A DNA stretch of 28,994 nucleotides. It comes from a virus. Positions within the stretch are counted from its first letter, which is position 1; each line of letters begins with the position of its first letter. Under the pieces are notes generated by a model. The model searched no databases. It saw nothing but the letters and a program-made list of their open reading frames with translations, and was not told where the DNA came from. The stretch is from the IMG/VR virus record IMGVR_UViG_3300042888_001950, positions 1 to 28,994 of that record; one strand, written 5' to 3'. Made by a program: the position numbers and the translations under genes. Of the stretch, positions 503 through 20,523 are shown piece after piece.

Positions 503-510
503 ATATTTAT
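503..510 (+). promoter_or_regulatory. ATATTTAT candidate late-promoter box
   Basis: An exact octamer ends 5 bases before the ATG at 516. The gap is unusually short, so a transcript from here would be nearly leaderless. This makes it the weakest of the exact upstream matches. Confidence 0.35.
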
Positions 511-515
511 CTTTA

Positions 516-1286
516 ATGGATAATAATATTAAAAATATTTTACAAAGTTTTCACTTACAAGACACCTTAAACCCTAAAATATGGGTTATGTCTGAAGATG
601 ATGAAATTGGTAATATGAATCCTAAAGTTAGGACTCGTTTACTTGACATTGCCTACGACTTTATTGATTTCTTAGGTGTGGATGTTATTGTGTCGGATGT
701 TGTTATGACAGGTTCATTATCAAATTATAATTGGTCAAAATACTCTGATGTTGATTTACACATCATTGCTGATTTTAATCAATTCAAGGAATCTGAATTA
801 CCTTTATATAAAGACTTATTTATATTAAAAAAAACAATATATAATGATAACCATGATATTACTATTTATGGTTATGATGTTGAACTATATGTTCAAGATG
901 AAAATGAAGCTCACTTTAGTAGTGGTGAATACTCTATTCTATTTGATGAATGGAAATCAAAACCTAAAAAAGAGAATGTTGATATTGACACCGAATTAAT
1001 TAAAACAAAAGCTAAAAAATGGATGGATTCTATTGATGCTATAATAGAACAATCAAAAGATGAATCTTTAGAAGAGTCTAAATTATTAATAGGTAAGTAT
1101 AAGGATAAGTTAAAGAAATATAGAACAAGTGGGTTAGAAAAAGACGGAGAATATTCTAATGAAAATTTAGTATTTAAGGTTTTAAGGAGAAATGGGTATG
1201 TTCAAAAGTTATTTGATTTCTTAAATAAAAACACAGATAAAATCCTCTCGCTTGACGAAAAAATAAAAAATACATCAGAAAAGTAA
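516..1286 (+). CDS. Pol-beta-type nucleotidyltransferase
   Basis: 256 residues. The N-terminal half carries the nucleotidyltransferase superfamily signature: G66-S67 in MTGSLSNYNWSKYSDVDLHI with the metal-binding pair D78 and D80 (S-D-V-D), and a plausible third carboxylate at D121 in YGYDVELYV. The C-terminal part is helical and lysine/glutamate-rich, with no domain I recognise. Such enzymes transfer a nucleotide to a protein, nucleic acid or small molecule; the substrate cannot be told from sequence. All core catalytic residues look intact. It lies between the KTSC gene and a head-region gene, followed by a 57-base spacer with a candidate late promoter, so it may be expressed separately from the head genes. 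Confidence 0.75.
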   Translation: MDNNIKNILQSFHLQDTLNPKIWVMSEDDEIGNMNPKVRTRLLDIAYDFIDFLGVDVIVSDVVMTGSLSNYNWSKYSDVDLHIIADFNQFKESELPLYKDLFILKKTIYNDNHDITIYGYDVELYVQDENEAHFSSGEYSILFDEWKSKPKKENVDIDTELIKTKAKKWMDSIDAIIEQSKDESLEESKLLIGKYKDKLKKYRTSGLEKDGEYSNENLVFKVLRRNGYVQKLFDFLNKNTDKILSLDEKIKNTSEK

Positions 1287-1303
1287 TATTTTTAATTCTG
1301 ACT

Positions 1304-1311
1304 ATATTTAT
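1304..1311 (+). promoter_or_regulatory. ATATTTAT candidate late-promoter box
   Basis: The exact octamer is followed two bases later by ATAAAA, and lies 32 bases upstream of the ATG at 1344. The leader in between is A-rich with no Shine-Dalgarno sequence. It would drive the head-region genes starting at 1344. Confidence 0.55.
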
Positions 1312-1343
1312 ATATAAAATTAATTCAAAACAAAAATAAAAAA

Positions 1344-2714
1344 ATGGGAAATAATTTAAGACCAATTGGTAGTGAAAAATTGCAAGGTATGGAGAAAATC
1401 AACCGTATGCTTGAAATTGCTAGATATAAAGAATCAACACCTAATCCTATCAATGAGGATAAGTCAGTAGAATACACTAAAACTTTATCTGATGGTAACA
1501 ATTACCAAATCATTAAAGAAAAAAGTGGTTATGTTCTAAAAAGAACATTATTGGAATCAGATGGTAATTCTGATTATTTAGAACCAATGAGAAATAGAAA
1601 ATATTACCCATCATATTCTCAAGCATTAAAAAGATTAAATCTTATTGCTAAAGAAGTTAATGTTAATGAAGGTGTTGAAAGTAATACATCTTTATTTAAT
1701 GAAAGTCAATCTGACGCTACAAAATATATTTTGAAAATGTCAGCTAACGAACAAGCCCCTGTTGCGGGACAAGTACCTGCTCCAGCACCAGCCCCCGCGG
1801 CTGCACCGGCTCCTGCCCCAGTTGCTGCACCAGCACCAGCTCCGGAAGAAGAATTAGATTTAGATTTTGATATGGAGGATACTGAAGGTGAAGAGGATGA
1901 TAATGAACCAGTATCAATAAAAGTTATTCAGAAATTAACTGGAAAATTAGCTCAAAAATTAAGAGCTTTTGACGAGGCTAATGAAGAAGAACCAATGTCA
2001 TCTAAAGATATTAAGTATGTTGTTAATTCTATTTTATCAGCAATTGATGTTGAAGCGTTAGATGAGGAAGATAAAGACGATATCTTAAGTAAATTAGAAG
2101 GTATTGAGGACGAATCTGAATTTGGTGGTGAAGAAGATTTTGATGGACTATCTGACGAAGATGGTTTAGAAGATGAAGAATTAGAAACTGAATTACCTGA
2201 AGGTGAAATGGGAGAAGCTTTTGATAGCGAAGAAATGACAATGTTTGATGATTTTAGTGAAGATGATTATGAAGAAATTTCTGACCTTAAAAGTCATATG
2301 TCTGGAAACAGAATGAACCCAAGAGCTGACAGAGAGTATCTTGATTTAAGTGATAACGATGAAGATTCTGATAGAACTAAAAAACATTTTGGTCTTGAAC
2401 CTCGTCACAGAAAAAATATGGGAGATATGTTTGAAGGTATTTTTTCTGAATCTAAAGTTGATAAAATATTAGAAAGATATTTTGAGACTGAAAAAACTGA
2501 AAATACTAAAAAAACTCCTATCACTGAAAATAGAAAAGTTATTGTTAACAGAATTAAAAATTTATCTGAAAGTATTTCACAAGAAGTAGCTTCAACTAAG
2601 TTTACGAGAAATAACCCAACCGCTAAATTAATTGGTAAAACAACTAAAAACTTTTTAGTATTTGAAAATAATAATACAAAAGTAAGAATCTCTACTAAAG
2701 GTGAAATTCTATGA
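1344..2714 (+). CDS. Acidic head-region protein with Pro/Ala linker, function unknown
   Basis: 456 residues, not recognised as a named family. In order: an N-terminal region (1-130) including a YQIIKEKSGYVLKRTLLES stretch that looks like a small folded domain; a low-complexity Pro-Ala linker (about 139-167, repeated P-A-P-A); a very acidic middle (168-345) with short helical islands; and a basic C-terminal segment (385-456). The layout (ordered end, flexible linker, acidic spacer, basic tail) recalls phage scaffold or core proteins, but that is inference from composition and from its place ahead of terminase. It overlaps the next gene by 4 bases (ATGA), indicating translational coupling. Confidence 0.6.
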   Translation: MGNNLRPIGSEKLQGMEKINRMLEIARYKESTPNPINEDKSVEYTKTLSDGNNYQIIKEKSGYVLKRTLLESDGNSDYLEPMRNRKYYPSYSQALKRLNLIAKEVNVNEGVESNTSLFNESQSDATKYILKMSANEQAPVAGQVPAPAPAPAAAPAPAPVAAPAPAPEEELDLDFDMEDTEGEEDDNEPVSIKVIQKLTGKLAQKLRAFDEANEEEPMSSKDIKYVVNSILSAIDVEALDEEDKDDILSKLEGIEDESEFGGEEDFDGLSDEDGLEDEELETELPEGEMGEAFDSEEMTMFDDFSEDDYEEISDLKSHMSGNRMNPRADREYLDLSDNDEDSDRTKKHFGLEPRHRKNMGDMFEGIFSESKVDKILERYFETEKTENTKKTPITENRKVIVNRIKNLSESISQEVASTKFTRNNPTAKLIGKTTKNFLVFENNNTKVRISTKGEIL

Positions 2715-3121
2715 ATCATTTAATTTACGTAAATGAATTAGGACCAAATTATAAAGGCGATAACATTTACGAATTTATTTTTTCGGATACTATAGATAAT
2801 ATCTGGGGCGAAAATTGGGAATCAAAACCATCTAATGGTTACCCTTTACCCCCAGATTTAGAATTTGTTAAAAAAGTGGGTGTATTGAAAAATGACCTAA
2901 TAACAATGTCAGTAATTCAGAATTCTGATTATTTCTCAATGATGGATTGTCTTGATGGTGTTGTAGCTTTAGCTTGGGAAAACGAATCGGATTATGTTGA
3001 TTTTAGTCATAAAAAAAGATTAGTGTTCTTATTCGGTGATACTGAAGAATCTGTTAAAGATAAACTATACGAACGAGATATCGTTTTAGAAATTGAAAAA
3101 AAAACAATATATGAAAATTAA
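2711..3121 (+). CDS. Hypothetical protein, 136 residues, coupled to upstream gene
   Basis: The start ATG overlaps the upstream stop (ATGA), and the 3' end overlaps the next gene by 11 bases, so it sits in a tightly packed head-region operon. The sequence is a soluble mixed alpha/beta type, rich in aromatic and acidic residues (NIWGENWESK, ALAWENESDYVDF), without signal peptide, membrane segment or metal-binding motif. I do not recognise the family. The close coupling on both sides argues that it is real and that its product is needed together with its neighbours. Confidence 0.65.
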   Translation: MNHLIYVNELGPNYKGDNIYEFIFSDTIDNIWGENWESKPSNGYPLPPDLEFVKKVGVLKNDLITMSVIQNSDYFSMMDCLDGVVALAWENESDYVDFSHKKRLVFLFGDTEESVKDKLYERDIVLEIEKKTIYEN

Positions 3122-4076
3122 TCACAAATTATTAAAATTGGTTGAGTATGGTATGAAAACTACCACTCTAACTTCCTTGACTGAATCTCAAGTGAATAAT
3201 CTATATAATAGATTAGTAGAAGGTAAAAAAGAAACTAAAGAAGCTACAACAACTAATCTTAACGCTAAAGAAACAACTTATAGTTCTGGTGAAGTTGGAG
3301 CTATGAAAACCAAAGGACTTGGTGTTAATGTTAAAAATGGTGAAGTTAGACCAACTGGTGACGGAGGTCTTAAAGTTATCACTAAAGAAGGTGAAATGAC
3401 TGAAAAAGCCGAATCTAAACAACAACAAAAATTTATGGGTTTAGCTTTGTCAGTTAAACGAGGTGACACGCCTAAAGGTGAAGTGTCTAAAAAAGTTAAA
3501 GAGACAGCTAAAAAAATGTCTGAAAAAGATTTAGAAGATTTTGCATCTACAGAACATAAAGGTTTACCTAAAAAAGTTAAAAAAGAAGAAACTAAAGAAA
3601 GTTTTGGATTTGGTGATTATGGTAAAAAATTAGCATCTGCTGCTGCTGGTGCAACTAAAAAGAATTTAGGTCAAATAAGTCCTAGTGTATCTATTGGTGA
3701 ATCTAAAGAAGCTATTATAGAAAGAAAAATTATTCAATTGGTTGAGAAACACCTTACACCAAAAATGACTAAACAAGACTTCTTAAATTTAGTTAAAGAA
3801 CAAGGAACTAAAGAAGCCCCTGTTAAGACTCCTGTTAAGACACCAACAAAACCAAAAAAAGATAATCCTTATCAACCAAAACATAAACCAGCTCCTAAAG
3901 CTGAAGTTAAAGAACAAGGAACTAAAGAAGCTCCGGTGAAAACTCCGGTAAAAACTCCTACAAGACCAAAACCGTTTAATCCTTATCAGCCAAAGCATAA
4001 ACCAGCTCCTAAAGCTGAAAATAAAGATTTACCTGAATGGTTATCTTTCACATCATTAGGTCTTAAATTAAAATAA
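3111..4076 (+). CDS. Lys/Thr-rich protein with DUF3008-like domain and tandem duplication
   Basis: 321 residues from the ATG at 3111; an in-frame TTG at 3093 lies deeper in the upstream gene and is less likely. An N-terminal helix ends in TSLTESQ. Residues 100-157 (KQQQKFMGLALSVKRG, then KKVKETAKKMSEKD and LEDFASTEHKGLPKKV) match the DUF3008 pattern seen in many phage proteins (function unknown). Residues 228-303 are two nearly identical 38-residue repeats made of Lys, Pro and Thr (KTPVKTP..., YQPKHKPAPKAE). The protein is strongly basic outside the N-terminus, so DNA or acidic-protein contact is plausible but inferred. It ends 5 bases before the next ATG. Confidence 0.65.
   Translation: MKINHKLLKLVEYGMKTTTLTSLTESQVNNLYNRLVEGKKETKEATTTNLNAKETTYSSGEVGAMKTKGLGVNVKNGEVRPTGDGGLKVITKEGEMTEKAESKQQQKFMGLALSVKRGDTPKGEVSKKVKETAKKMSEKDLEDFASTEHKGLPKKVKKEETKESFGFGDYGKKLASAAAGATKKNLGQISPSVSIGESKEAIIERKIIQLVEKHLTPKMTKQDFLNLVKEQGTKEAPVKTPVKTPTKPKKDNPYQPKHKPAPKAEVKEQGTKEAPVKTPVKTPTRPKPFNPYQPKHKPAPKAENKDLPEWLSFTSLGLKLK
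3792..4019 (+). repeat. Tandem duplication, two 114-base in-frame copies
   Basis: Copy 1 is 3792-3905 and copy 2 is 3906-4019. Each encodes 38 residues starting VKEQGTKEAPVKTPVKTP and ending KHKPAPKAE. Protein identity is much higher than DNA identity: many differences are synonymous (CCTGTTAAG against CCGGTGAAA), so the duplication is not recent and the peptide looks constrained. Confidence 0.9.
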
Positions 4077-4081
4077 TAGTT

Positions 4082-5419: not shown

Positions 5420-5436
5420 AAAATTAAATTAACATT

Positions 5437-7235: not shown

Positions 7236-7243
7236 CTATTTAT
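7236..7243 (+). promoter_or_regulatory. Near-match late-promoter box (CTATTTAT) before portal
   Basis: Seven of eight bases match ATATTTAT. It lies 29 bases upstream of the portal ATG at 7273, in the only sizeable gap between terminase and portal. The trailing ATAAAA seen at other sites is absent. Confidence 0.3.
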
Positions 7244-7272: not shown

Positions 7273-9138
7273 ATGGAAAATAATCAAAACAATCAAAATA
7301 ATTTAACTGTTTGGCAAAGATTATCAAAAGCGTTTGGTCCTAATTCATTATTGAATCAAGACTATCCGACTTATAAAGTTGATAAAAAAGAGTTGTTAAA
7401 AACAACTTCTAAAGCTGAATACGAAAAAGAAAAGTTACAGGCTCAACAAACTTATTACTTAGGTAATCAGTGGACTAAAATTGAAAGTAACTTATATACT
7501 CAAGCGGTTTATTATGAACCAACTCGTTTAGCATCATTTTATGATTATGAAAGTATGGAGTACACACCTGAAATTTCTGCAGCATTAGACATTTATGGTG
7601 AGGAATCAACAACGGTTGACCAAAATGGTCATATGTTACAAGTATTTTCTGAATCAAAACGAATCAAATCAATCTTAACGGATTTATTCAACAACGCTTT
7701 AGATATTAATACAAATTTACCTATGTGGACAAGAAATACTTGTAAATATGGGGATAATTTCGTTTACCTAAAATTAGATGGTGAAAAAGGTATTGTTGGT
7801 GCTATGCAACTTCCTAATATTGAAATAGAACGATTAGAGAGAGGTATGGCAGCTAAATCCGCTAATGTTGAGGAATTACCTGAAAATAGAGGGTTAAGGT
7901 TCAAGTGGAAATCTAAAGATATGGAATTTAACACTTGGGAGATTGCTCACTTTAGATTATTAGGTGATGATAGAAAATTACCTTATGGTACTTCTATGTT
8001 GGAGAAAGCGAGAAGAATTTGGAAACAATTATTACTATCTGAAGACGCGATGTTAATTTATAGAACATCAAGAGCACCTGAGAGAAGAGTATTTAAAGTT
8101 TTCGTTGGTAATATGGATGATAAAGATGTTGAACCATATGTACAACGTGTTGCGAATAAATTCAAAAGAAGTCAGGTTGTTGATTCAAGTTCAGGAAATG
8201 TTGATATGAGATTTAATCAAATGGCTGTTGACCAAGATTATTTCATCCCTGTTCGTGACCAAGCGGCTGCTTCACCTATTGAGACTTTACCCGGTGCTCA
8301 AAACTTAGCTGAAATCGCGGATATTGAGTATATTCAAAAGAAATTATTAACGGCTCTTAGAGTCCCTAAAGCCTTTTTAGGGTTTGAAGAACCTGTTGGT
8401 GGTGGTAAAGATTTATCGTTAATGGATATTCGTTTCGCAAGAACAATTAATAGAATACAAAATTGTATGATTGCCGAATTAAATAAAATTGCAATTATTC
8501 ATTTATTTTTATTAGGTTTTGAAGATGAGTTATCTAATTTTACATTAGGTTTAACTAACCCATCAAGTCAAGCGGATTTATTAAAAATTGACATATTCAA
8601 AGAAAAATTGTTGGCTTATAAAGATGCTGTAGCACCTATTGAGGGTATTGCTCCGGTTTCTGTATCTTGGGCTAAAAAACATATCCTAGGATTTTCTGAT
8701 GAAGAAATTAAACTTGATTTACAACAACAACGTATTGAGAAAGCGGCCGGTGCTGAATTAACTAATACCGCAACAGTTATTACTCATACAGGTATCTTTG
8801 ATAATATTGATAAGTTATATGGTAATAAACCTGGAGCTCCACAAGCTGCCGGTGCAACACCACCAGCAGAACCTGGAAGTGAAGGTGGCGGAGAAGATTT
8901 TGGTGCGTTAGGCGGAGCCCCTGAGATGGGTGGTGAAGAATTAGGTGGAACTCCACCTCCAGGACCTGAAGCAGGTGGTGAAGCTGGGGTAACACCAGAA
9001 TCATTTAAGAAAACCAACCATAACATTTTATTAGAAAATGAAGGGCTATTTAATGACGATTCTTACATCAATTTATCTAAAGGTGAAAATTATTTAGGAG
9101 AAATTGAAGACCAATTGGATAAACTTCTGAATGGTTAG
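7273..9138 (+). CDS. 20: Portal protein (gp20-like)
   Basis: 621 residues; T4 gp20 is 524. Portal dodecamers form the unique vertex through which DNA enters and leaves. Typical gp20 stretches are present: LPYGTSMLEKARRIWKQLLL, YRTSRAPERRVFKVFVGN, DQDYFIPVRD, LPGAQNLAEIADIEYIQKKL and ALRVPKAFLGFEE. The core ends near residue 510. A C-terminal extension of about 100 residues follows: a Gly/Pro/Glu-rich disordered linker (about 518-575), then a short helical tail (ENEGLFNDDSYINLS to the end). This tail is extra relative to T4 and could be a flexible tether inside the head or removed by the prohead protease (LLE just before NEG is a possible site); that is inference. Confidence 0.95.
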   Translation: MENNQNNQNNLTVWQRLSKAFGPNSLLNQDYPTYKVDKKELLKTTSKAEYEKEKLQAQQTYYLGNQWTKIESNLYTQAVYYEPTRLASFYDYESMEYTPEISAALDIYGEESTTVDQNGHMLQVFSESKRIKSILTDLFNNALDINTNLPMWTRNTCKYGDNFVYLKLDGEKGIVGAMQLPNIEIERLERGMAAKSANVEELPENRGLRFKWKSKDMEFNTWEIAHFRLLGDDRKLPYGTSMLEKARRIWKQLLLSEDAMLIYRTSRAPERRVFKVFVGNMDDKDVEPYVQRVANKFKRSQVVDSSSGNVDMRFNQMAVDQDYFIPVRDQAAASPIETLPGAQNLAEIADIEYIQKKLLTALRVPKAFLGFEEPVGGGKDLSLMDIRFARTINRIQNCMIAELNKIAIIHLFLLGFEDELSNFTLGLTNPSSQADLLKIDIFKEKLLAYKDAVAPIEGIAPVSVSWAKKHILGFSDEEIKLDLQQQRIEKAAGAELTNTATVITHTGIFDNIDKLYGNKPGAPQAAGATPPAEPGSEGGGEDFGALGGAPEMGGEELGGTPPPGPEAGGEAGVTPESFKKTNHNILLENEGLFNDDSYINLSKGENYLGEIEDQLDKLLNG

Positions 9139-9146
9139 ATATTTAT
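9139..9146 (+). promoter_or_regulatory. ATATTTAT candidate late-promoter box
   Basis: The exact octamer starts right after the portal stop codon and is followed by AT and then ATAAAAAA. It lies 15 bases before the ATG at 9162, one of the best matches to the extended pattern. Confidence 0.6.
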
Positions 9147-9161: not shown

Positions 9162-9881
9162 ATGATAAAGTTCGGTATATTAAAATCACAGGTTGAGAAT
9201 GTATTATTAGAATCATATAAAAATGATACATTTAAAAAAGAAGTACAAAATTTTAAGAAACTTGTATTAGAAAATAAAAATATTAATAAAATATTTTATC
9301 TATATGATGATTTAACCTCTAACAAGGGGTTAAATGAATCTATAGTTAATGAATACATCACTGAATGTATTTCAATTTATGAAAATACAATTAATAAAAT
9401 TACACCATCCGATATTGATAAATTAAAGAAATGGGTTGGTAATAATAAAACAGAAAATATATATGAATCTGTTGACAATTTATTTTCAAAAGATGTTCTT
9501 ATGATTGAGTCAAGAATTCAATCTAAAAAAGTTATTTCAGAAACTTTAAAAGTATCCCCTAAACAAATTCAGGAAAATGTTAACATACCTTTAGGTTCAA
9601 TGGTTAATATTGCAAATAAAACTATTAACACATTTATTGAAAATTTAGAGGAGTCAGATAAAAAAGAATTAAAAACTTTATTATCAACAGATGATGAAGA
9701 ATTAAAATTAAAGTATGATTCAATTAAAGAAACTATCATCACAAAATTAACTAAAATGAAAGGCGATGAACTAGATGTTTCAACTAACAATACAATCAAC
9801 GAAACAATTGATAGAGTTGTTTCAGAAAAATATGATAAATTAAATTATGTTAAACTTAAAACTTTAAACGAAAATTTATAA
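9162..9881 (+). CDS. Helical protein between portal and protease, possible prohead core component
   Basis: 239 residues, predominantly Lys/Glu/Asn/Ile/Leu, consistent with long helices and some coiled coil. No family recognised and no enzyme motif. It begins MIKFGILKSQVENVLLES and is rich in hydrophobic-x-Glu triplets (VLLE, LNE, ISE), the kind of site cut by T4-type prohead protease. In T4 the genes between portal (20) and protease (21) are the prohead core proteins 67 and 68, so position and composition make a core role plausible, though no sequence homology to them can be claimed. It has its own candidate promoter and ends just before a strong terminator. Confidence 0.6.
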   Translation: MIKFGILKSQVENVLLESYKNDTFKKEVQNFKKLVLENKNINKIFYLYDDLTSNKGLNESIVNEYITECISIYENTINKITPSDIDKLKKWVGNNKTENIYESVDNLFSKDVLMIESRIQSKKVISETLKVSPKQIQENVNIPLGSMVNIANKTINTFIENLEESDKKELKTLLSTDDEELKLKYDSIKETIITKLTKMKGDELDVSTNNTINETIDRVVSEKYDKLNYVKLKTLNENL

Positions 9882-10007: not shown

Positions 10008-10478
10008 ATGAAAAAAGGAAAAACATCACAGATTGATGGATTTGATAATGCAAAAATAACTTACGGAACAGTAGATTCTGTAAATCTAAAATCAATTTAT
10101 CTTAACATACAAACTTGGGTTGAACCAATAACCGAAGTTGAAGATTGGAATAGAATAGTTTTAAACTTAAGTAGAAACATTAAACACTCCATTTACGAGG
10201 TTATGAATGAAGATGTATTCACAAAAACTTTTATAGTTGATTTAGATTTGAGGTCAAGTGGATTATCAATATTAAAGAAATCATTTATGAATTTAGAAAT
10301 TAATTTTTATCTTAACGATAGTGAAATTGATTTTAAAGATGAAAAAATAAGAAAAACATTGTCAAAAATAACATACGAAATATTCAAAGAGAATTTTAAA
10401 GATAATAAATATTTTAATTTTTATTTAACTAAAACATCTAAATTATGTGATAATATGTTAGAAATAGAAAATTCTTAA
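10008..10478 (+). CDS. Hypothetical protein upstream of prohead protease
   Basis: 156 residues from the ATG at 10008. The reading frame stays open to a TTG at 9948, but that lies next to the terminator's T run, so the ATG is preferred. The sequence is mixed alpha/beta (IYLNIQTWVEPI, TFIVDLDLRSSGLS, LEINFYLN) with a lysine-rich helical end. No signal peptide or motif is visible and the family is not recognised. It is isolated upstream by a terminator and downstream by a candidate promoter for the protease, so it forms a short unit of its own in the head cluster. Confidence 0.6.
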   Translation: MKKGKTSQIDGFDNAKITYGTVDSVNLKSIYLNIQTWVEPITEVEDWNRIVLNLSRNIKHSIYEVMNEDVFTKTFIVDLDLRSSGLSILKKSFMNLEINFYLNDSEIDFKDEKIRKTLSKITYEIFKENFKDNKYFNFYLTKTSKLCDNMLEIENS

Positions 10479-10485
10479 TATTTAT
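10478..10485 (+). promoter_or_regulatory. ATATTTAT candidate late-promoter box before protease
   Basis: The exact octamer overlaps the stop codon of the upstream gene, is followed by TA and then ATAAAAAC, and lies 17 bases before the protease ATG at 10503. Confidence 0.6.
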
Positions 10486-10502: not shown

Positions 10503-11237
10503 ATGAGTAATATAGAAATTAATAAAACTAATGTCCTTAATAAAAAATTAATTCTAATTGAATACGATGCGGGTTATATTTCACCAAAAGATGAGTATAA
10601 TTCTAAAATAATTAAAGAGTCTGATGGTATGTTAGACCATTCAAAACCTTTTGAATTTTACGCTGTATTACAAAAATACGATACCCCTAATAGAAATGGT
10701 AGAGTATACCCTAAAAGACTATTAGAAAGAGAAGCTCAGAATTATAGAAAAATGATTGAGAAAGGAACTGCGTTATCAGAATTAAACCATCCTGAATCAT
10801 CATTAATTGACTTAGATAGAGTATCACATTTAATTACTGATGTATGGTGGGAAGGACCTGCGTTAATCGGTAAAATAAAACTATTAACAACACCAGGTTA
10901 CCACGAAAGAGGTATTGTATCATCTAAAGGTGATTTGGCTGCCAATTATTTAAGACAAGGGGTTACTTTAGGTATCTCATCAAGAGGTGTAGGTTCGCTT
11001 AAAAAAGTGGGTGAACAAAATGAAGTTCAAGACGACTTTGAACTAATTTGTTTTGACTTAGTTTCATCACCATCAACACCGGGGGCGTATCTATACCATA
11101 ACGAAGGTGATAGACAGAAATATGATGAAAACCTTGACGAAGAAAAAAAGACAACTATAGAGCGACAAGTCGGAAGTAATGGTAATAAATCACTTGACTT
11201 AATGAAAAAATTAAACGATTATTTAGGAAACAAATAA
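10503..11237 (+). CDS. 21: Prohead core protease (gp21-like, peptidase S77)
   Basis: 244 residues; T4 gp21 is 212. This serine protease cleaves scaffold, capsid and internal proteins during prohead maturation. Family landmarks appear in order: TPNRNGRVYPKRLLERE (61-77), ALSELNHPES with candidate catalytic His96, DLDRVSHLITDVWWEG, LGISSRGVGSL with the nucleophile serine in the S159-S160 pair, and DDFELICFDLVSSPSTPGA including D185. All expected catalytic positions look intact. The N-terminal 45 residues and the Lys/Glu-rich C-terminal 40 residues are less conserved and may be removed on self-cleavage. It is followed after 12 bases by a small gene and then a terminator. Confidence 0.93.
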   Translation: MSNIEINKTNVLNKKLILIEYDAGYISPKDEYNSKIIKESDGMLDHSKPFEFYAVLQKYDTPNRNGRVYPKRLLEREAQNYRKMIEKGTALSELNHPESSLIDLDRVSHLITDVWWEGPALIGKIKLLTTPGYHERGIVSSKGDLAANYLRQGVTLGISSRGVGSLKKVGEQNEVQDDFELICFDLVSSPSTPGAYLYHNEGDRQKYDENLDEEKKTTIERQVGSNGNKSLDLMKKLNDYLGNK

Positions 11238-11578: not shown

Positions 11579-11586
11579 ATATTTAT
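11579..11586 (+). promoter_or_regulatory. ATATTTAT candidate late-promoter box before scaffold/capsid
   Basis: The exact octamer lies 17 bases before the scaffold ATG at 11604 and is preceded by a marked T-rich tract (11550-11576). It is the only candidate promoter between the terminator at 11481-11509 and the capsid gene, so it probably serves both scaffold and capsid. Confidence 0.6.
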
Positions 11587-11603: not shown

Positions 11604-12971
11604 ATGGCAAAAGAAAAATCTTTAGTTGAGGACGCAATCATCCAAATGAGAAATTTGGAAGAAGCTGTTGCGGAAAATGCAAAAGGAATACTTGCTTCTA
11701 CAATGAAGGAAGAAATCAAAGAACTAGTAAAAGAATCTCTGACCGAACAAGAAGACGAGATTGACACAGATGTTGAAATGGATTTACCTACGGATGACGA
11801 AGGTGATGAAATGGATATTGATAATATTGACGATATGGAAGACGAAGAAGACTTTGATGAGTTTGGTGATGACGAAGACGTTATTGACCTAACTGATATT
11901 GAAGACGATTCTGAAATCTTACGTGTATTTAGTTTATTAGGACCTGAAGATAATGTTATAGTTAAGAAAGACGAGACTGGTAACATTAGCTTAAAAGATG
12001 GTGATAAAGAATACATGATTGTTGGTGAAAACGAAGACGAAGATGCTGACATGGAAATGTTTGAAGGTTTCGGAGAATTTGAAGACGACGAAGAACAAGA
12101 AGAAGACGAACTTTACGAAGAAGATGAATTTTCAAATGAAGATGAATCTATTGACGATATCGTTTCTAAAGTATTTGGAGAAGGTCAAGACTTTGAGGAT
12201 AATGAACTTGAAGAAAATGATGAAGAAGTTGTTTACGAAATTGAAATGGACGACGAAGATTTAATGGATGAAGAAGATGAATATCTTGAGGAATCTAAAT
12301 CAACAATTAAACCTAAAGGTGTTGGTATGGGTAAACCAAAATTCTCTTATAATTCTAAACCAAATCAAGGAAAAGGTTTCAACACTAAAATGAAAGAAGC
12401 CCCTAAATCTGTTGGAACTGGAAAAGCGAAATTTGAATTTAAAGAAGACGAAGATTTTGAAAAAATAGAAACTAAAGAAGCTGCTCGCACTATCGGAAAT
12501 GGTTCTAAATCAGGTCGTGGTCTTAGAAAAGGTATTACTCCTAATAGAAACTTGGAATTCCCTATTAAAGAAAATACTGACGCTAAAGAACTACAAATCC
12601 TTAGAGAAAAAAACGAAGAGTATAGAAAAGCTTTAAATATTTTCAGAAATAAATTAAATGAGGTTGCTGTTTTTAACTCAAACTTAGCTTACGCTACTCG
12701 TTTATTTACTGAATGTACTACTTCAAAACAAGAAAAAATAAACATATTGAAAAGATTTGATGGTGTTGAAACGATTAAAGAATCTAAAAACTTATATCAA
12801 AGTCTTAAAAATGAATTGTCAGTTAAATCTGGTAAACCAATCAATGAATCTATTGAGTCTAAATTAGACAAAACACATTCAACTGGTTCTGCCGTTAATT
12901 TAATTGAATCAAAAACTTACGAAAATCCACAATTCCTTAGAATGAAAGATTTGATGAGTAAATTAAAATAA
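11604..12971 (+). CDS. 22: Prohead scaffold protein (gp22-like)
   Basis: 455 residues; T4 gp22 is 269. It forms the inner core around which capsid protein assembles and is normally destroyed by the prohead protease. The N-terminal 45 residues are helical. Residues about 50-250 are extremely acidic (runs of Glu/Asp with Met), and 230-320 is a basic, Gly/Lys-rich region. A C-terminal helical domain from about 322 contains REKNEEYRKALNIFRNKL, EVAVFNSNLAYATRLF and SKQEKINILKRFDGVE, typical of scaffold C-termini in T4-like phages. The call rests on this domain plus its place between protease and capsid. The acidic insert is long compared with T4. Confidence 0.8.
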   Translation: MAKEKSLVEDAIIQMRNLEEAVAENAKGILASTMKEEIKELVKESLTEQEDEIDTDVEMDLPTDDEGDEMDIDNIDDMEDEEDFDEFGDDEDVIDLTDIEDDSEILRVFSLLGPEDNVIVKKDETGNISLKDGDKEYMIVGENEDEDADMEMFEGFGEFEDDEEQEEDELYEEDEFSNEDESIDDIVSKVFGEGQDFEDNELEENDEEVVYEIEMDDEDLMDEEDEYLEESKSTIKPKGVGMGKPKFSYNSKPNQGKGFNTKMKEAPKSVGTGKAKFEFKEDEDFEKIETKEAARTIGNGSKSGRGLRKGITPNRNLEFPIKENTDAKELQILREKNEEYRKALNIFRNKLNEVAVFNSNLAYATRLFTECTTSKQEKINILKRFDGVETIKESKNLYQSLKNELSVKSGKPINESIESKLDKTHSTGSAVNLIESKTYENPQFLRMKDLMSKLK

Positions 12972-14870: not shown

Positions 14871-14900
14871 AAGGGACAAGAAATTGTCCCTTTTTTTTTT
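14871..14900 (+). terminator. Intrinsic terminator after major capsid gene
   Basis: The stem AAGGGACAA (14871-14879) pairs with TTGTCCCTT (14884-14892) around a GAAA tetraloop, followed by ten T (14891-14900). The last two bases of the T run are part of the stop codon of the opposing gene. Confidence 0.9.
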
Positions 14901-16518
14901 ATAATAAAATTTCATATTTTAAATTACCGGTATCCCATATTTTATCGTAACCTAATTCAGACATTATTTGAGATTCTGTTTTATTTTTATCATAACCTAA
15001 CTTAACTAATCTATCTTTTCTATAGTTAAACCTATGTTCTCTAACATCATATTTTTTAGTATAACTATAATTAGGTTTTGTTTCCCCAATATAATTAAAC
15101 CCTGTTTTAGAATAAAAACAAAATTCATCTGAAGGTGACCAATTTCTGTTAGAATATGTTATAATTTTTTTAGGTGAATATTCCTTTATAAAATGTTTTA
15201 ATAATTTTGTAAATCCACCAACTACATTTACGGAACAATAACGATATAATTCATATTCATCTATAGTTTTATTTTTATTACCTAAAATTTTTCTTAATGA
15301 ACCAAATGACATAACGGCAACAATAATATCATTATGTTTTAGACCAAAGTATATTGTTGATTTATCATTACCTTGTAAATGGTTAGTCTTAAGAAAATTA
15401 CTTTTTTCATCACTACTTATAGTTGTTATTTCACAATTTCTCGCATAAATTTTAGTATTATTTTTCTTCAATAAATTAGTAATTCTATTTTTTACTATAT
15501 TTTTCTTTGTTAACCATTCGTCAGAAAAAATATGAATTAATTGAATGTTTTTTTCAAGACATTTTAATGTTTTATCTATATGATAATTTTTATGTTTCCC
15601 CCTATTTTCTGAGTGCCAATATAATCCATTATATTCTATAGCTATATTATAATCAGGAAAATACAAATCTAATTCAACACCATTTAATTGTTTCTTATCA
15701 CAAACTTTAACATCAACACCTAATGATTTAACATATTCCTCAATTTCTTTTTCAGATTTACTTCTGTAGTAAAAATTAGTTTCACATTTTAATAAATTAG
15801 ATACAAATGTGTCTTTTGTTTTTTTAGAAATTAAAGAGTTTTCGCCAAATTTATTTTTATATTCCTCGGTTGTTATATTATGTGATGACAAATGAGTGTT
15901 AGATAACATTTTAAATTGTTCGTCACATAATTCACAAGTGACATAATTATCTGTTTCATTAAATAACACATCTCTGTCAATAGAATTTGATAACGTTGTG
16001 AATAGTTTAAGTTCTGAAGGGAATTTTAACACATAATCACTAATTGAGTTGTGTGCGTTTTCAATATGTTTAGATAACGCCCCGGATTTATTAACAATAT
16101 CTTTGGTGACCCATCCACATTCTAAACATTTTATTGTTGTTGATTCCGGTTTAGTGATTAAATTAAAGTAAGTAAAATGCCAATAATTCCCAGTATCCGT
16201 TAAATACATTCTTCTTTTGAATGAAGATGGGATAACTTCATTAGGGTAACATTTTTTAATATGATTAGTTACTCCACCACTTTTATTTTCAATGTCATCA
16301 TATTCTTTACCACAACACTTACAAGATAGTATAATATTTTTATTATCTAACTCAATCTTTTTGACCTGTTTATGTTTGATTTGACCACCTTTAGTTTTTA
16401 ATGGTATGTTATTACTTAATAAAATTTTTTTAATTTTAAGTTTACCAACCTTAAATTCTTTAGCCAAGGTCTCAATAGAGACATTATCTTTATACTTTTC
16501 AATTATTATATCTTCCAT
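14899..16518 (-). CDS. Zinc-finger Vsr-like (EDxHD-type) homing endonuclease
   Basis: 539 residues, apparently intact. Domains in order: helix-turn-helix-like N-terminus (1-45, VSIETLAKEFKVGKLKIKKI); three zinc-finger-like modules, C66/C69/H86/C90, C131/C134/H151/H156 and C195/C198/H209/H213; a PD-(D/E)XK/Vsr-type nuclease at about 250-335 (SEKEIEEYVKSLG, ELDLYFPDYNIAIEYNGLYW, H302, H313, HIFSDEW); and a C-terminal GNAT/Mom-like region (375-505: FLKTNHLQGN, YELYRYCSVNVVGGFTKLL, KTGFNYIGET). Free-standing phage homing endonucleases of the Vsr/EDxHD group have this nuclease pattern. It sits inverted next to the capsid gene, as a mobile gene would. The C-terminal assignment is by resemblance only. 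An ATATTTAT overlaps its ATG (16517-16524) but is too close to act as a normal promoter. Confidence 0.8.
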   Translation of the reverse strand: MEDIIIEKYKDNVSIETLAKEFKVGKLKIKKILLSNNIPLKTKGGQIKHKQVKKIELDNKNIILSCKCCGKEYDDIENKSGGVTNHIKKCYPNEVIPSSFKRRMYLTDTGNYWHFTYFNLITKPESTTIKCLECGWVTKDIVNKSGALSKHIENAHNSISDYVLKFPSELKLFTTLSNSIDRDVLFNETDNYVTCELCDEQFKMLSNTHLSSHNITTEEYKNKFGENSLISKKTKDTFVSNLLKCETNFYYRSKSEKEIEEYVKSLGVDVKVCDKKQLNGVELDLYFPDYNIAIEYNGLYWHSENRGKHKNYHIDKTLKCLEKNIQLIHIFSDEWLTKKNIVKNRITNLLKKNNTKIYARNCEITTISSDEKSNFLKTNHLQGNDKSTIYFGLKHNDIIVAVMSFGSLRKILGNKNKTIDEYELYRYCSVNVVGGFTKLLKHFIKEYSPKKIITYSNRNWSPSDEFCFYSKTGFNYIGETKPNYSYTKKYDVREHRFNYRKDRLVKLGYDKNKTESQIMSELGYDKIWDTGNLKYEILL

Positions 16519-16613: not shown

Positions 16614-16621
16614 ATATTTAT
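16614..16621 (+). promoter_or_regulatory. ATATTTAT candidate late-promoter box
   Basis: The exact octamer is followed by TA and then ATAAAAAG, 15 bases before the ATG at 16637. It is nearly identical in layout to the site before the protease gene. Confidence 0.6.
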
Positions 16622-16636
16622 TAATAAAAAGATTAT

Positions 16637-17230
16637 ATGAAAAATTTATATTCCTTAAATGATGAGGAAAAACAGAGAATATTAAATCTTCACGAGAATG
16701 CAACAAAACGTCAATATTTGGGAGAACAATTAACTGATGAAACTGGTAAATATACTCCAGTATATAAACCTGAAGTTGGTCCTGATACTCAAGTAGATGC
16801 TAGTAAGAAATTTACCCCAGCGGCAATGGCTTGTATTAAACAATTTGGTGAATATAAACCGGCTAAAACACCTGGTTTTGTTCAGGTTGAAACAGATAAA
16901 GCCACTGTATTCTTTAGTAAAGATTATGAAGTTAGATATCGACCAACCGGTGGTGAAATTATAAAGGGTCAATGGTCTTGTATGAGTAATGTTTTTAATA
17001 TTAATCTAAACGATGATTCAACTTGGTCAAGGGCTCAAGGTGGTTGGAAGAATCCGACAATTAATACTAAACCTCAAGTTAAAATAAATCCGGTTTTACA
17101 ACAAACAATGACGATTAATAAACAAATTCAACAAAAACTTGGATTAAAACAAACAGGTAAATTAACTCATAATGAATTGGAAGTTCTAATTAAAACATTA
17201 ACACCTAACGCTACACCAACTCAACAATAA
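16637..17230 (+). CDS. Small protein with peptidoglycan-binding-like C-terminus
   Basis: 197 residues. The N-terminus YSLNDEEKQRILNLHENA is a charged helix. A central domain (about 55-140, with two Cys and several Trp/Phe) is not recognised. The last 50 residues (INKQIQQKLGLKQTGKLTHNE, then LEVLIKTL) resemble half of a PG_binding_1 motif (repeated helix, T-G-x-L-T). There is no signal peptide or catalytic residue, so it is not itself a lysin. The next gene, 14 bases downstream, has the same plan: short N-terminal helix, linker, PG-binding-like end. A virion-associated or cell-wall-contacting role is a guess. It is expressed from its own candidate late promoter. Confidence 0.55.
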   Translation: MKNLYSLNDEEKQRILNLHENATKRQYLGEQLTDETGKYTPVYKPEVGPDTQVDASKKFTPAAMACIKQFGEYKPAKTPGFVQVETDKATVFFSKDYEVRYRPTGGEIIKGQWSCMSNVFNINLNDDSTWSRAQGGWKNPTINTKPQVKINPVLQQTMTINKQIQQKLGLKQTGKLTHNELEVLIKTLTPNATPTQQ

Positions 17231-17244
17231 AAATAAGAAACAAA

Positions 17245-17638: not shown

Positions 17639-17840
17639 TTATAGTTCTAATTGCTCTAGATATTACCTCACATTCCCCCAATGAATACATCCCACTACTA
17701 TATCCGTATTTAACGGCTTGAATTAGGAAGTAGGTTGCGTTATCTTTATCCATTGTGTTTAGAATGGTATCTAAATGTTCTTCATTATACAGAGGTATAG
17801 TTTCAAATAATTTACCAAAAAGTTCTTGTTCTTGTTCCAT
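17619..17840 (-). CDS. Small hypothetical protein, 73 residues
   Basis: The open frame extends upstream to 17894, but that part runs through the intergenic promoter region and into the divergent gene, so the ATG at 17838-17840 (MEQEQELFGKLFET) is chosen. The protein is acidic and helical, with a central AVKYGYSSGMYSLGECEV segment. No family or motif recognised. It is a single-gene minus-strand unit between two plus-strand units. On its sense strand the T4-type sequence TATAAATA lies 16 bases upstream (17858-17865), so it may share a bidirectional late-promoter element with the gene at 17874. Confidence 0.55.
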   Translation of the reverse strand: MEQEQELFGKLFETIPLYNEEHLDTILNTMDKDNATYFLIQAVKYGYSSGMYSLGECEVISRAIRTITKKETE

Positions 17841-17856
17841 AATATAATTTAATAGT

Positions 17857-17864
17857 ATATTTAT
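17857..17864 (+). promoter_or_regulatory. ATATTTAT box between divergent genes, possibly bidirectional
   Basis: On the + strand the octamer is 9 bases before the ATG at 17874. Read on the - strand the same element gives TATAAATA (17858-17865), the classical T4 late promoter, 16 bases before the ATG of the minus gene. Confidence 0.5.
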
Positions 17865-17873
17865 AATTATACT

Positions 17874-18290
17874 ATGAAAAATAATAAAATACATATTTCA
17901 GAAGCGACAAGTACTTCATCTGGAAGTAGGGGTTCTTATAACGCTCCATTATCAATTGGTATTAGATTGTTTAATAAACAGGCTATGCAACCATATTATG
18001 TACCAACATCAGAGTATGATGACGCTATGTTGACATATGATAGTTATGATGGTGAGATGAGTACACCGAAGAAGGTTATTAATAAAATTGAGAAATTGGC
18101 TCGTAAGATTGCGAAGAAGGTTAAAGATAATCCGGTATTAAATGATGATGATGGTGATATTTTAAATAATAAACTTGGTAAAGTTAATGAGTGGATTGAA
18201 ATAAGAAGTTTTAACGAAGGAAAACACGAAACCCGTAATCTACAACAAATAATAAAAGATACTCTATTACAAGAAAGAAAAAACCCCTAA
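17874..18290 (+). CDS. Hypothetical protein, 138 residues
   Basis: It begins MKNNKIHISEATSTSSGSRG, a short helix then a Ser/Gly-rich flexible stretch. The middle contains PLSIGIRLFNKQAMQPYYV, and residues about 60-138 are helical and Lys-rich. No family recognised. The IHISE|ATS sequence near the N-terminus fits a prohead-protease site (hydrophobic-x-Glu then Ala), so it could be a processed internal head protein, but that is speculation. Codon use includes many GAT/GAG and AAG-rich stretches but no clear sign of foreign origin. Its stop codon overlaps the stop of the convergent gene within a shared terminator. Confidence 0.6.
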   Translation: MKNNKIHISEATSTSSGSRGSYNAPLSIGIRLFNKQAMQPYYVPTSEYDDAMLTYDSYDGEMSTPKKVINKIEKLARKIAKKVKDNPVLNDDDGDILNNKLGKVNEWIEIRSFNEGKHETRNLQQIIKDTLLQERKNP

Positions 18291-18311
18291 TCTTCAACGA
18301 CAGGGGTTTTT
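18279..18311. terminator. Bidirectional terminator with overlapping convergent stop codons
   Basis: The stem AAAAACCCCT (18279-18288) pairs with AGGGGTTTTT (18302-18311). It has A-rich and T-rich flanks on both sides, so it can act on both strands. The + stop TAA (18288-18290) and - stop TAG (18287-18289) overlap at its stem-loop border. Confidence 0.85.
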
Positions 18312-18739
18312 TGTTTTGGTTTCGGATTCATCTTACTTAAAATGTTATCTAAAGAATGTTTTATTTGAGATTTCATTTGGTTTTTTAGTTCTTGTCTGAG
18401 ACTTTCAGTTTTGTTATCATACATAGTTGTCATTTTTCTCCAATCTCTATCGGTTAATAAAATGTTACTATAATAAAAAACATGATTGATAACACTAATT
18501 TTTTTATTATCAAGAATTACGAATATTCCTAGTTTACTATTTTTAATATATCTTTCTTCCGATAATGGAGCGATAAAGAACTCAGACTTTGGATGTTTGA
18601 TTGCGTTACGACAAATAGCAACACAGGTTTTAGTGTCCGCTAAAATACCTGGGTCAACAACATCATACATATGTTTTAACTTTAATAGTCTTTTTTTAAC
18701 TATATCTCGTTTGATTAATTTTTTAATATATTGTATCAT
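18287..18739 (-). CDS. Hypothetical basic protein, 150 residues
   Basis: Strongly basic N-terminus (MIQYIKKLIKRDIVKKRLLK). The central part (FIAPLSEERYIKNSKLGIFV, then NHVFYYSNILLTDRDWRKM) looks like a small beta-containing domain, and the C-terminus is a helical, Gln/Lys-rich tail ending KPKQKTPVVED. No family recognised, no signal peptide. Its start is the ATG at 18737-18739. The region upstream lacks the phage octamer and instead shows a TATCTTTG box, so it may be transcribed by the host polymerase rather than as a late gene. It is separated from the structural genes upstream by a terminator. Confidence 0.6.
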   Translation of the reverse strand: MIQYIKKLIKRDIVKKRLLKLKHMYDVVDPGILADTKTCVAICRNAIKHPKSEFFIAPLSEERYIKNSKLGIFVILDNKKISVINHVFYYSNILLTDRDWRKMTTMYDNKTESLRQELKNQMKSQIKHSLDNILSKMNPKPKQKTPVVED

Positions 18740-18763
18740 GGCGGGTGGGGTTTAATTACCATA

Positions 18764-18771
18764 CAAAGATA
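18764..18771 (-). promoter_or_regulatory. Candidate host-type promoter -7 box (TATCTTTG)
   Basis: On the - strand TATCTTTG fits the Bacteroidota -7 consensus TAnnTTTG. It lies 24 bases upstream of the ATG at 18739, directly after a terminator. No convincing TTG was found at the -33 position, so confidence is modest. Confidence 0.35.
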
Positions 18772-18785
18772 GAGAATATAACCCA

Positions 18786-18810
18786 TAAAAAAAAGGGAAA
18801 TTATCCCTTT
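18786..18810 (-). terminator. Intrinsic terminator of the - strand structural unit
   Basis: Read on the - strand, AAAGGGATAATTTCCC forms a short stem with the T-rich continuation (at least eight T). It follows the 54-residue gene by about 30 bases. Confidence 0.75.
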
Positions 18811-18838
18811 CTTCTATATTGTAATAAAATAATTTTAA

Positions 18839-19003
18839 TTAAGAATTTAATCCATTTCCACCAATAGTAACCGCATTCATTTGAACAACAGTTCCCCCAG
18901 TTGTGTTAGAGTATCCCGGATGTGGTGGTACGATAATTTGTAAATTCTTATCACAGTCTATTTGACATATAACTGTTTCTGTGTTTGCACTAATTTCACC
19001 CAT
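18839..19003 (-). CDS. Small conserved-looking protein, 54 residues, own promoter and terminator
   Basis: The start codon is at 19001-19003 and the TAA at 18839-18841. The product begins MGEISANTETVICQIDCDKN and continues through VPPHPGYSNTTGG to end TIGGNGLNS. It is rich in Thr, Asn, Gly and Val with two cysteines four residues apart, suggesting a small beta structure. No family recognised. It has an ATATTTAT box with trailing ATAAAAAC 13 bases upstream and a terminator downstream, which together with codon-like base use make a real gene likely. Its place next to a beta-rich structural gene suggests a small virion or tail-fibre accessory protein; this is inference. Confidence 0.65.
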   Translation of the reverse strand: MGEISANTETVICQIDCDKNLQIIVPPHPGYSNTTGGTVVQMNAVTIGGNGLNS

Positions 19004-19016
19004 TTTGTTTTTATTT

Positions 19017-19024
19017 ATAAATAT
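19017..19024 (-). promoter_or_regulatory. ATATTTAT candidate late-promoter box (- strand)
   Basis: On the sense strand it reads ATATTTAT, then AA, then ATAAAAAC, 13 bases before the ATG of the 54-residue gene. It begins immediately after the stop codon of the upstream gene. Confidence 0.6.
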
Positions 19025-20500
19025 TTAGTAATCTGAATTTTTGATGTTTACAATCTGAAATTTAATCTGTCTTTTGTATGTGTTAATTTCACCACTACTT
19101 TCAACTTTGATATCCACATAATATTCATTAGGTATTTTATCTCTAGTATCAAATATAAAATTATATTCATCAGCGGTACGGTTTAGTTTTGTCCAATCTT
19201 GAACCTGAACTTCAACTTGACCTTCTCTAACATATACTCTATAATATGCACGGATATTTGGTAATAATTTTTGAGTGGTATAAGCTTGTTTAATAACAAC
19301 CCCCACTTTTCTAACATCCGTATTATAAATTTTTTCATCTTGTTTAATACCATAAAAATCAAATCCATATAATTTTGGGTCAACAGATGATGTACCAATT
19401 TGGATTGAATGTTTTAGTGGGTATATTGTAAAGTTATTTATCACATTAGGTAATGAAAACCCATTTAAAGTTAATCCAGACCAAATGTCTGAAAAAGTAC
19501 AAGGAGTTTTATAACCAATAAGTGGTGGTATGGTGATTTCATACACACCTTTTGTTCTTCGGCAAGAAGTTAAACCGGTTAAACCAGGTATTAAAGTTCC
19601 GCTAGAATCTGATATGCTAACAGTCGGGTTAGTATCCAAATTAATAGGATTCCCATTATCGTATAGGTATAAATATAGTTTATTTATTTTACCTAATGTA
19701 AATGAATTTCTATCATCCTCAATTAGGTCATTGTAATTAGTTTCTAAAAATGGTTCGTAAAAAGTTTGAGTATGTCTAGTAAAAAACTGAACTTCATAAT
19801 TTTCCGTTAAACCTGTTAAATTTTCAACTTGTGGTTTAAATGCGATACCCCATCCTGAAATATTAGGTAAAGTTCCATTTAACACATTATTAATTTCTTG
19901 GGTCATATCAAAACTAATGTTTTCATTACCAAACTCAAAATGTTGTGTACCAACAATTGTTAAACCCGAATAAGGAACCACCCCAATATTTTTATTATTA
20001 TAAATCCCGGGTGTAGTCCAAGAGTTTATTGTTGTTGTTGCGGACCAATTTGAAGGTCTTGTTGAATAATTTTTATCAATAGTTATTTCGTATTTTAAAT
20101 CCGCGTAATCATAACCAACACCTTCATCCCACAATTGGGGGGTTGTAACAACATTATTTATATAAGGAATTCTAAATAATATTAAATCAAATGATGTTGC
20201 TCTCATTCGTTGTTGAGAAGTGGTTGTGTTTAAACTTTCAATATCAAATGTTGAGGTATTAAACATTCTCAAGGTATGTTTTATATTGTTAGTACATCCC
20301 GTGGTTATTGTTCCATCTGAAATTTTTTGTTTTAATAAATCTAAATCTAAATTAAAAATAAAGCGACTATACCCATTTGGATATTGGGTTGTCGCTGTTG
20401 AACCATAAAATAATTCTGTAACCGGATTTCTCCCTGTATTACATAAACTATTTGATATAAGAGTATTGTTCCTATTAAAGTATGAATTGTTAATTGACAT
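19025..20500 (-). CDS. Beta-rich virion/tail structural protein
   Basis: 491 residues, rich in Asn, Thr, Ile, Ser and aromatic residues, with no helix-rich or enzyme-like segments. The first 250 residues (SRFIFNLDLDLLKQKI, LRMFNTSTF, WGIAFKPQVENLTG, FFTRHTQTFYEPFLE) recall DNRLRE-type beta domains found in surface and phage structural proteins. The C-terminal 240 residues look like two or more Ig-like or beta-sandwich modules (LYLYLYDNGNPINL, VYEITIPPLIGY, YYVDIKVESSGEINTYKRQI). No signal peptide. It sits just downstream of the gp5-like hub gene, so a baseplate or tail-fibre role is likely. An ATATTTAT overlaps its ATG (20499-20506), too close to act as a normal promoter. Confidence 0.6.
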   Translation of the reverse strand: MSINNSYFNRNNTLISNSLCNTGRNPVTELFYGSTATTQYPNGYSRFIFNLDLDLLKQKISDGTITTGCTNNIKHTLRMFNTSTFDIESLNTTTSQQRMRATSFDLILFRIPYINNVVTTPQLWDEGVGYDYADLKYEITIDKNYSTRPSNWSATTTINSWTTPGIYNNKNIGVVPYSGLTIVGTQHFEFGNENISFDMTQEINNVLNGTLPNISGWGIAFKPQVENLTGLTENYEVQFFTRHTQTFYEPFLETNYNDLIEDDRNSFTLGKINKLYLYLYDNGNPINLDTNPTVSISDSSGTLIPGLTGLTSCRRTKGVYEITIPPLIGYKTPCTFSDIWSGLTLNGFSLPNVINNFTIYPLKHSIQIGTSSVDPKLYGFDFYGIKQDEKIYNTDVRKVGVVIKQAYTTQKLLPNIRAYYRVYVREGQVEVQVQDWTKLNRTADEYNFIFDTRDKIPNEYYVDIKVESSGEINTYKRQIKFQIVNIKNSDY

Positions 20501-20523
20501 AAATATCTTTTAACAATAAATAG

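Follow-up and report, generated by a model that had tools for sequence, protein, structure and literature searches.

A candidate late promoter element of changed sequence in uncultured T4-like phages

We analysed a phage DNA stretch of 28,994 nucleotides (nt), referred to here as the window (IMG/VR record IMGVR_UViG_3300042888_001950), which is identical over its full length to G013:218661-247654, part of an IMG/VR contig of 282,192 bases. The window encodes a T4-like virion block with portal (PHROG 213), prohead protease (PHROG 207) and major capsid (PHROG 138) proteins, together with a terminase (detected with tblastn) and PhoH. An A/T-rich box, ATATTTAT, lies before many of its genes and was put forward in an initial annotation as a candidate late promoter. 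That proposal is backed by the enrichment, orientation and gene-specific conservation of the box and its scarcity before packed genes, by a virion and lysis bias among the functionally labelled genes and by a gp55-type sigma factor in the same genomes. On the mRNA-like strand, the element is best written [ACG]TATTTATA, and it is also present in divergent phages. We consider it probable that [ACG]TATTTAT(A) is a -10-type late promoter element read by a phage sigma factor together with the host core RNA polymerase, and we infer both its promoter activity and its timing. Judged from sequence, it is most likely a late promoter of the gp55 type with an altered sequence, widespread in uncultured T4-like phages and in many cases predicted to give the mRNA a very short leader or none. 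Among the matches listed in a search of open-licence PMC papers, judged partly by title, none described this late promoter.

The eight boxes named in the initial annotation are all exact and in the sense orientation, the distances to the ATG are as it described (Table 1), and the near-copy before the portal gene is present. Five of these boxes (1304, 9139, 10478, 16614 and 19017) carry the longer pattern ATATTTATnnATAAAA. The remark that intragenic exact copies are few needs correction, as the window holds 15 exact copies, of which seven lie outside these upstream sites. One further copy proposed as a box, at 20499-20506 on the minus strand, overlaps an ATG, and the likely box of that gene is the variant listed in Table 1. 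Shuffling supported enrichment for the position before genes, but not for the total number of copies in the window. The 15 exact copies compare with an expected 9.41 (standard deviation 3.20), a number reached by 7 of 100 shuffles, and VTATTTAT showed no significant excess over the window (23 of 100 shuffles were as high). Within 45 nt upstream, the exact word was found for eight of the 31 window genes against a shuffle mean of 0.61, a count that none of 2000 shuffles reached, and [ACG]TATTTAT for ten of the 31. The reverse complement upstream of the same genes was at chance level (1 versus 0.93). Because total copies are near chance but 8/31 genes beat all shuffles, we call the signal in the window positional.

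A search of IMG/VR with the capsid protein retrieved at least 599 relatives, of which 80 were kept. In the 50 nt before 1051 genes from these 80 loci and the window, ATATTTAT was found 335 times in sense and 62 times in antisense, out of 551 copies on both strands. The longer ATATTTATWWWWAAA had 134 copies in 12 contigs, compared with 11 of a backward-read control. An enlarged set comprised 2813 distinct upstream regions, from which the window was excluded and in which the identical contig was included, so that window genes were counted once. Here the octamer was present in 642 regions against 63 in 30 dinucleotide shuffles (standard deviation 5, maximum 73), and the antisense word in 131 against 78. 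Six genome-collection relatives with G+C fractions of 0.28-0.47 also carry the box (31 sense and 4 antisense of 102 genes). An origin by chance in A/T-rich spacers would agree with the window total, which is near expectation. However, this explanation is refuted by the dinucleotide shuffles and by the conservation among orthologues described below, and the box is kept in three relatives with G+C fractions of 0.41-0.47 (9 sense versus 2 antisense of 48 genes), so that we give it a negligible probability.

The form of the box was examined at gaps of 4-36 nt between box end and ATG. As first base, A (622 sense, 98 antisense), G (115, 16) and C (67, 10) all showed a sense excess, while T is not a form of the box (61 sense, 215 antisense). 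For other single changes, the sense excess was slight or absent, except most clearly for G at base 7 (59, 18) and C at base 4 (22, 8). In sequence logos, the box is often directly preceded by G and followed by A or T; a weak T-rich patch stands upstream, at 12-16 nt from the box start, and genes with longer gaps have a run of A 12-15 nt from the box start. The upstream logos contained a single strong box only and no -35 element.

The initial annotation read the box as the T4 late box reversed. This reversal is not needed, since TATTTATA and the T4 late box TATAAATA align on the same strand with six of eight bases equal, differing at two central positions. Closest to our findings is its alternative proposal, in which the sigma factor of the phage reads the element in a different way. 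At 359 box genes, TATAAATA occurred 64 times in sense and 206 times in antisense. The T4 word in sense is thus not a marker of these genes, and its antisense count arises because TATAAATA overlaps TATTTATA. By sequence, the 'reversed box' appears to be a by-product of a near-symmetrical A/T word. Taken literally, the reversed reading places a T4 late box on the other strand, from which transcription would run away from the gene, and the reverse complement TATAAATA is indeed part of many boxes. Nevertheless, the orientation of the box is constant and its distance to the gene ahead falls in a narrow range, and it also lies before co-directional genes. Moreover, T4 itself has the opposite orientation: among 245 T4 genes used as a control, TATAAATA was mostly sense (21 sense, 7 antisense) and ATATTTAT mostly antisense (4 sense, 13 antisense). 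We regard transcription away from the gene as hardly credible.

Conservation of the box is gene-specific. We compared 133 orthologue clusters, each represented in four or all five of the genomes G013, G014, G001, G002 and G003 (229-318 kb). [A/G]TATTTAT was never found before 82 of these clusters, was found in all genomes before 15 and in four of five before 8. It also depends on the space between genes, as [ACG]TATTTAT precedes 14 of 668 genes lying no more than 10 nt from a co-directional neighbour versus 136 of 252 with a gap of 20-49 nt. Boxed genes include those for the prohead protease, a protein at the scaffold position, a gp25-like baseplate wedge protein and a head-tail adaptor-like protein (each 5/5 genomes), the tail sheath (4/5), endolysin (3/4), portal (2/5) and terminase (2/5). 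A function scan covered 20 of the 23 non-window clusters boxed in at least three genomes; seven of the 20 proteins were functionally labelled, four with virion or lysis functions and three with others. The labels among ten box-less clusters with upstream room included DNA polymerase, single-strand binding protein, primase, a DNA helicase, an ATP-dependent protease and two glycosyltransferases, as well as a weak match of antitermination type; the one virion gene among these labels was that of a baseplate hub.

The box was also detected in phages far from this group. In the cultured Flavobacterium phage immuto, whose terminase is 28% identical, [ACG]TATTTAT precedes 33 of 225 genes in sense and 3 in antisense. 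The boxed genes include terminase, portal, tail sheath, tail completion, baseplate hub and tape measure genes; the capsid gene is not among them, and a ribonucleotide reductase gene and groES are boxed at gaps of 40-42 nt. In Microcystis phage Mel-JY01 (131,485 of 190,001 bases), ATATTTAT precedes 15 of 136 genes in sense and one in antisense, against 2.2 in shuffles (standard deviation 1.1). These boxes, one of them before a tail tube gene, lie at least 13 nt from the ATG; on visual inspection, most of them precede a purine-rich stretch. GGAG in Mel-JY01 (19 sense, 5 antisense) was not above the shuffle mean of 16.6, and this Shine-Dalgarno count was not relied on. As a separate observation, a second upstream word was found before 148 genes at immuto positions 30001-129999, in the forms TATATTTA (20 sense, 1 antisense), ATATTTAG (17, 1) and TTTAGGTA (16, 1), which is perhaps another promoter class or an operator.

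A candidate reader of the box is encoded in the window (24617-25366, minus strand). This protein matches PHROG 234 (late sigma) with an E value of 0.0012, and each of ten records of 157-322 kb contains one PHROG 234 match (E values 1.8e-4 to 0.005). A profile of 17 members from the clade aligned with nine gp55 sequences with an E value of 4.3e-5 and a probability of 69%. The AlphaFold model of the window protein had a predicted local distance difference test (pLDDT) score of 73 and a predicted template modelling (pTM) score of 0.48. Foldseek searches with the model matched sigma factors (best E value 8.7e-4, with low template modelling scores), and the top entry in VIA-align was T4 gp55 in the open complex (7d7c_F; Z 9.2, 3.2 Å over 102 residues), tied with sigma-E at 9.0; VIA-align cautions that helical models often reach such Z values. 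The model shows a fold like that of sigma region 2. By these comparisons, region 2 is related to that of gp55, but only remotely, and sigma factors in general share this fold. No relative was recognised for the C-terminal part (residues 156-249; pLDDT of 86 in a separate model), which gave no Foldseek match under an E value of 0.001, and sigma region 4 was not recognised in it. When the sigma profile was run against the sequences of solved structures, one irrelevant match (E value 0.73) was obtained. In immuto, the homologue at 78106-78828 (E value 3.2e-19), annotated as the hypothetical protein immuto136C_152 (78130-78828), is also the best match of that phage to the gp55 profile (E value 0.0021), and relatives of the immuto protein occur in Mel-JY01 (36.4%) and in the uncultured phage LR756508 (40.5%; 100327-100995).

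Homologues of the beta and beta-prime RNA polymerase subunits (PF00562 and PF00623) were found in none of seven large contigs, while 14 of 14 controls were positive. The absence of these subunits implies use of the host core RNA polymerase. On the same grounds, a promoter of a phage-encoded multisubunit RNA polymerase was rejected for all seven genomes. A search for single-subunit RNA polymerases gave no match in the phages or in the controls and is hence uninformative.

The element would work like the T4 late promoter but with another sequence. The T4 late promoter consists of one A/T octamer near -10 and lacks a -35 element (PMC2988020); the logos here show one strong box with no -35 element, and its position near -10 is predicted. 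Both elements lie before virion genes in genomes that encode a gp55-type sigma factor. In T4, the reader is gp55 with gp33 and the sliding clamp gp45, gp55 carrying a C-terminal clamp-binding motif (PMC7892883). Unlike in T4, two central bases of the box are changed, gp45 was not found and gp33 gave one weak match, the sigma factor has an extra C-terminal domain without recognised relatives, and many leaderless mRNAs are predicted. The pockets of T4 gp55 are reported to contact bases -12, -9 and -8 with Y97, N13/H95 and T99 (PMC7892883). In a joint alignment, Y occupies the Y97 column in every one of the 17 sequences from the clade as well as in immuto, Mel-JY01 and LR756508, and the T99 column holds G in 17/17 clade members, Q in immuto and S in Mel-JY01 and LR756508. 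At H95, the clade has Y, where four of nine gp55s also have F or Y. Based on a remote alignment and on a provisional register, this fits only loosely with a kept -12 contact and a changed box centre. A comparable case is the late promoter of the T4-like Aeromonas phage Aeh1, CTAAATA, in which the box changed together with a diverged gp55 (PMC1524935); in Aeh1, however, the change is at the upstream end of the box, and in the clade studied here at its centre.

Genes without the box are enriched for another type of promoter. The Bacteroidota sigma-A consensus is given as TTTG / TAnnTTTG (PMC6847099, PMC9723704). TTG-N(16-21)-TAnnTTTG was found 55 times in sense and 13 times in antisense before 463 box-less genes with upstream room, compared with 3 sense and 20 antisense before 359 box genes, and the host-type promoter is not a mark of boxed genes; before 659 packed genes it was found 3 times in sense and 4 in antisense. 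The host-type promoter before box-less genes suggests that the host of this phage group is probably a member of the Bacteroidota and points to transcription of early genes by host sigma-A. Genome-collection contigs with relatives are labelled Bacteroidales, Paludibacteraceae, Prochlorococcus, Mycoplasmatota, Acidobacteria and 'bacterium'; because these labels are mixed, they do not decide the host. Could the box itself be a promoter of sigma-A or another host sigma factor? Bacteroidota sigma-A also uses an A/T-rich element near the start, at -12 to -5 (PMC9723704), and both elements occur in the same phage genomes. However, the box has another sequence and lies before other genes, the TTG-N-TAnnTTTG promoters being mainly elsewhere, box genes show no -33 element in their logos, and the box is also found in a phage recorded from Microcystis. 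A host sigma factor as the reader is thus, in our judgement, very unlikely.

The distance to the start codon suggests short leaders. In the 2813-region set, gaps of 0-3 nt after an exact box numbered 3 in total, those of 4 nt 78, of 5 nt 67 and of 8-11 nt 4 to 6 each, and a second peak was found at 14 nt (73). In the five genomes, the gap is 3-8 nt for 158 of 423 boxed genes (18 of 71 in G013 alone). The gp25 proteins of the five genomes, with gaps of 4-7 nt, are alike from residue 1, so that this ATG is very probably the true start. The T4 late box spans -13 to -6 (PMC1524935), and this geometry together with the shortest common gap of 4-5 nt is consistent with a start site near the ATG. If the start site lies as in T4, short-gap mRNAs are predicted to be leaderless or nearly so. 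Leaderless mRNAs are reported at 5.5% in F. psychrophilum (PMC9723704), and in F. johnsoniae 87% of predicted transcripts have leaders of more than 10 nt (PMC6847099). A separate observation concerns G001, where six adjoining genes on the minus strand (238754-242671; five of 148-149 amino acids (aa), one of 507 aa) have a box each, exactly 4 nt before the ATG.

Closeness to the start codon would also suit an RNA-level element that aids the start of translation, in hosts described as being without Shine-Dalgarno sequences (PMC6847099). A gap that varies from 4 to more than 30 nt, the rarity of the box before packed genes and its position in Mel-JY01, well upstream and mostly before a purine-rich stretch, argue against this role, which we hold to be quite improbable. 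The octamer might instead be the site of another phage regulator, an activator or repressor, near an unrecognised promoter. Such a site would be equally conserved, oriented and gene-specific, and the longer form of the box can be near-palindromic (1304 and 10478), but the logos contain no second motif at a fixed distance, and a gap floor of about 4 nt is expected for a -10 element and not for operators in general. We consider a regulator site unlikely.

Several results weigh against a late promoter read by a gp55-type factor. The PHROG 234 search was also positive in 7 of 14 cellular controls, so that a weak match alone is no proof; T4 gp55 alone against another clade alignment, of 28 members, reached a probability of 5.8%, and the Pfam Sigma70_r2 match of the candidate was below the cut-off. 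In the seven large genomes, gp45 (PHROG 223) was not detected and gp33 (PHROG 254) was detected in one, weakly (E value 0.007) and inside a 753-aa frame; divergent versions of both could be missed. In LR756508 (141,548 of 484,177 bases), the box is not enriched (2 sense and 2 antisense of 152 genes) despite a related sigma factor, and the bases examined contained no other clear upstream motif. Thirteen of the 20 scanned boxed proteins have no functional label, and the box precedes genes for a DnaB-like helicase (5/5 genomes), a PHROG 858 regulator (4/4) and a weak SbcC-like match (5/5). The baseplate hub and major capsid genes are boxed in 0/5 genomes. The capsid gene begins 26-66 nt after the boxed gene at the scaffold position, whose promoter may also drive it. 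In T4, by contrast, the promoter of the capsid gene is P23. P23 is the late promoter in the solved T4 complex (PMC7892883).

On balance, we favour a late promoter that works as follows. The host core RNA polymerase with the phage sigma factor would recognise the box on the mRNA-like strand, without a -35 element and with the weak T-rich patch upstream; the A/T-rich stretch downstream of the box would be melted, and transcription would start a few nt later. Many early and replication genes would use the host sigma-A promoter instead. Because the start site would be so close to the ATG, about a third of boxed mRNAs would have their first nucleotide at the AUG or a few nt away from it, and very short leaders would be common among the rest. 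More tentatively, and with somewhat less than even confidence, we suggest a distinct system in which a gp55-related sigma factor with its own C-terminal domain replaces gp55/gp33/gp45, reads [ACG]TATTTATA and produces many leaderless late mRNAs. If so, translation of the virion genes in this clade would follow a pathway rarely employed by Bacteroidota hosts.

For uncultured T4-like phages of a very large group, with at least 599 capsid relatives in IMG/VR, the results offer a candidate late promoter together with its likely reader, so that late transcription units can be drawn from sequence. They also predict that such phages make many late mRNAs without a leader, although leaderless mRNAs are rare in their hosts. 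Cultured immuto, with the same box and a relative of the sigma factor, makes the proposal testable at the bench, and the sigma factor and its promoter form a natural pair for comparison with the solved T4 gp55 complex.

Table 1. Candidate boxes and candidate sigma factor gene in the window. Gaps run from the box end to the ATG; the last column refers to the five genomes compared.
Feature	Position	Strand	Gap (nt)	Gene ahead, or basis of assignment	Occurrence
Box ATATTTAT	503..510	+	5	516-1286 (PHROG 36119, no function assigned)	4/5 genomes
Box ATATTTAT	1304..1311	+	32	1344-2714	4/5 genomes
Variant CTATTTAT	7236..7243	+	29	Portal gene, 7273-9138	[A/G]TATTTAT in 2/5 genomes, gap 29 in G001
Box ATATTTAT	9139..9146	+	15	9162-9881	5/5 genomes
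Box ATATTTAT	10478..10485	+	17	Prohead protease gene, 10503-11237	5/5 genomes
Box ATATTTAT	11579..11586	+	17	11604-12971 (scaffold by position only; no PHROG match)	5/5 genomes
Box ATATTTAT	16614..16621	+	15	16637-17230	
Box ATATTTAT	17857..17864	+	9	17874-18290	4/5 genomes
Box ATATTTAT	19017..19024	-	13	54-aa gene, 18839-19003	4/5 genomes
Variant CTATTTAT	20516..20523	-	15	19025-20500	[A/G]TATTTAT at gap 13-15 in four other large genomes
Candidate late sigma factor, distant T4 gp55 relative, 249 aa	24617..25366	-		PHROG 234, profile comparison, VIA-align	

Directly after the major capsid gene, the window contains a gene on the minus strand (14899-16518) whose product has a ROS_MUCR zinc-finger match over the Pfam cut-off and sub-threshold matches to restriction endonucleases. 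T4 has the homing endonuclease gene segD at this place. The ATG of the gene at 14899-16518 overlaps a copy of ATATTTAT.

The N-termini of proteins in the five genomes also differed between gap classes. Starts resembling MK..ITE were found in 36 of 158 genes whose box lies 3-8 nt before the ATG, compared with 31 of 247 boxed at greater distances and 79 of 1301 lacking a box. Prohead cleavage in T4 follows an LxE rule, and an [LI]xE triplet near the N-terminus was present in 79/158, 115/247 and 362/1301 genes of these three classes, respectively. The MK..ITE-like start might represent a peptide that directs proteins to the capsid and is cleaved by the prohead protease.

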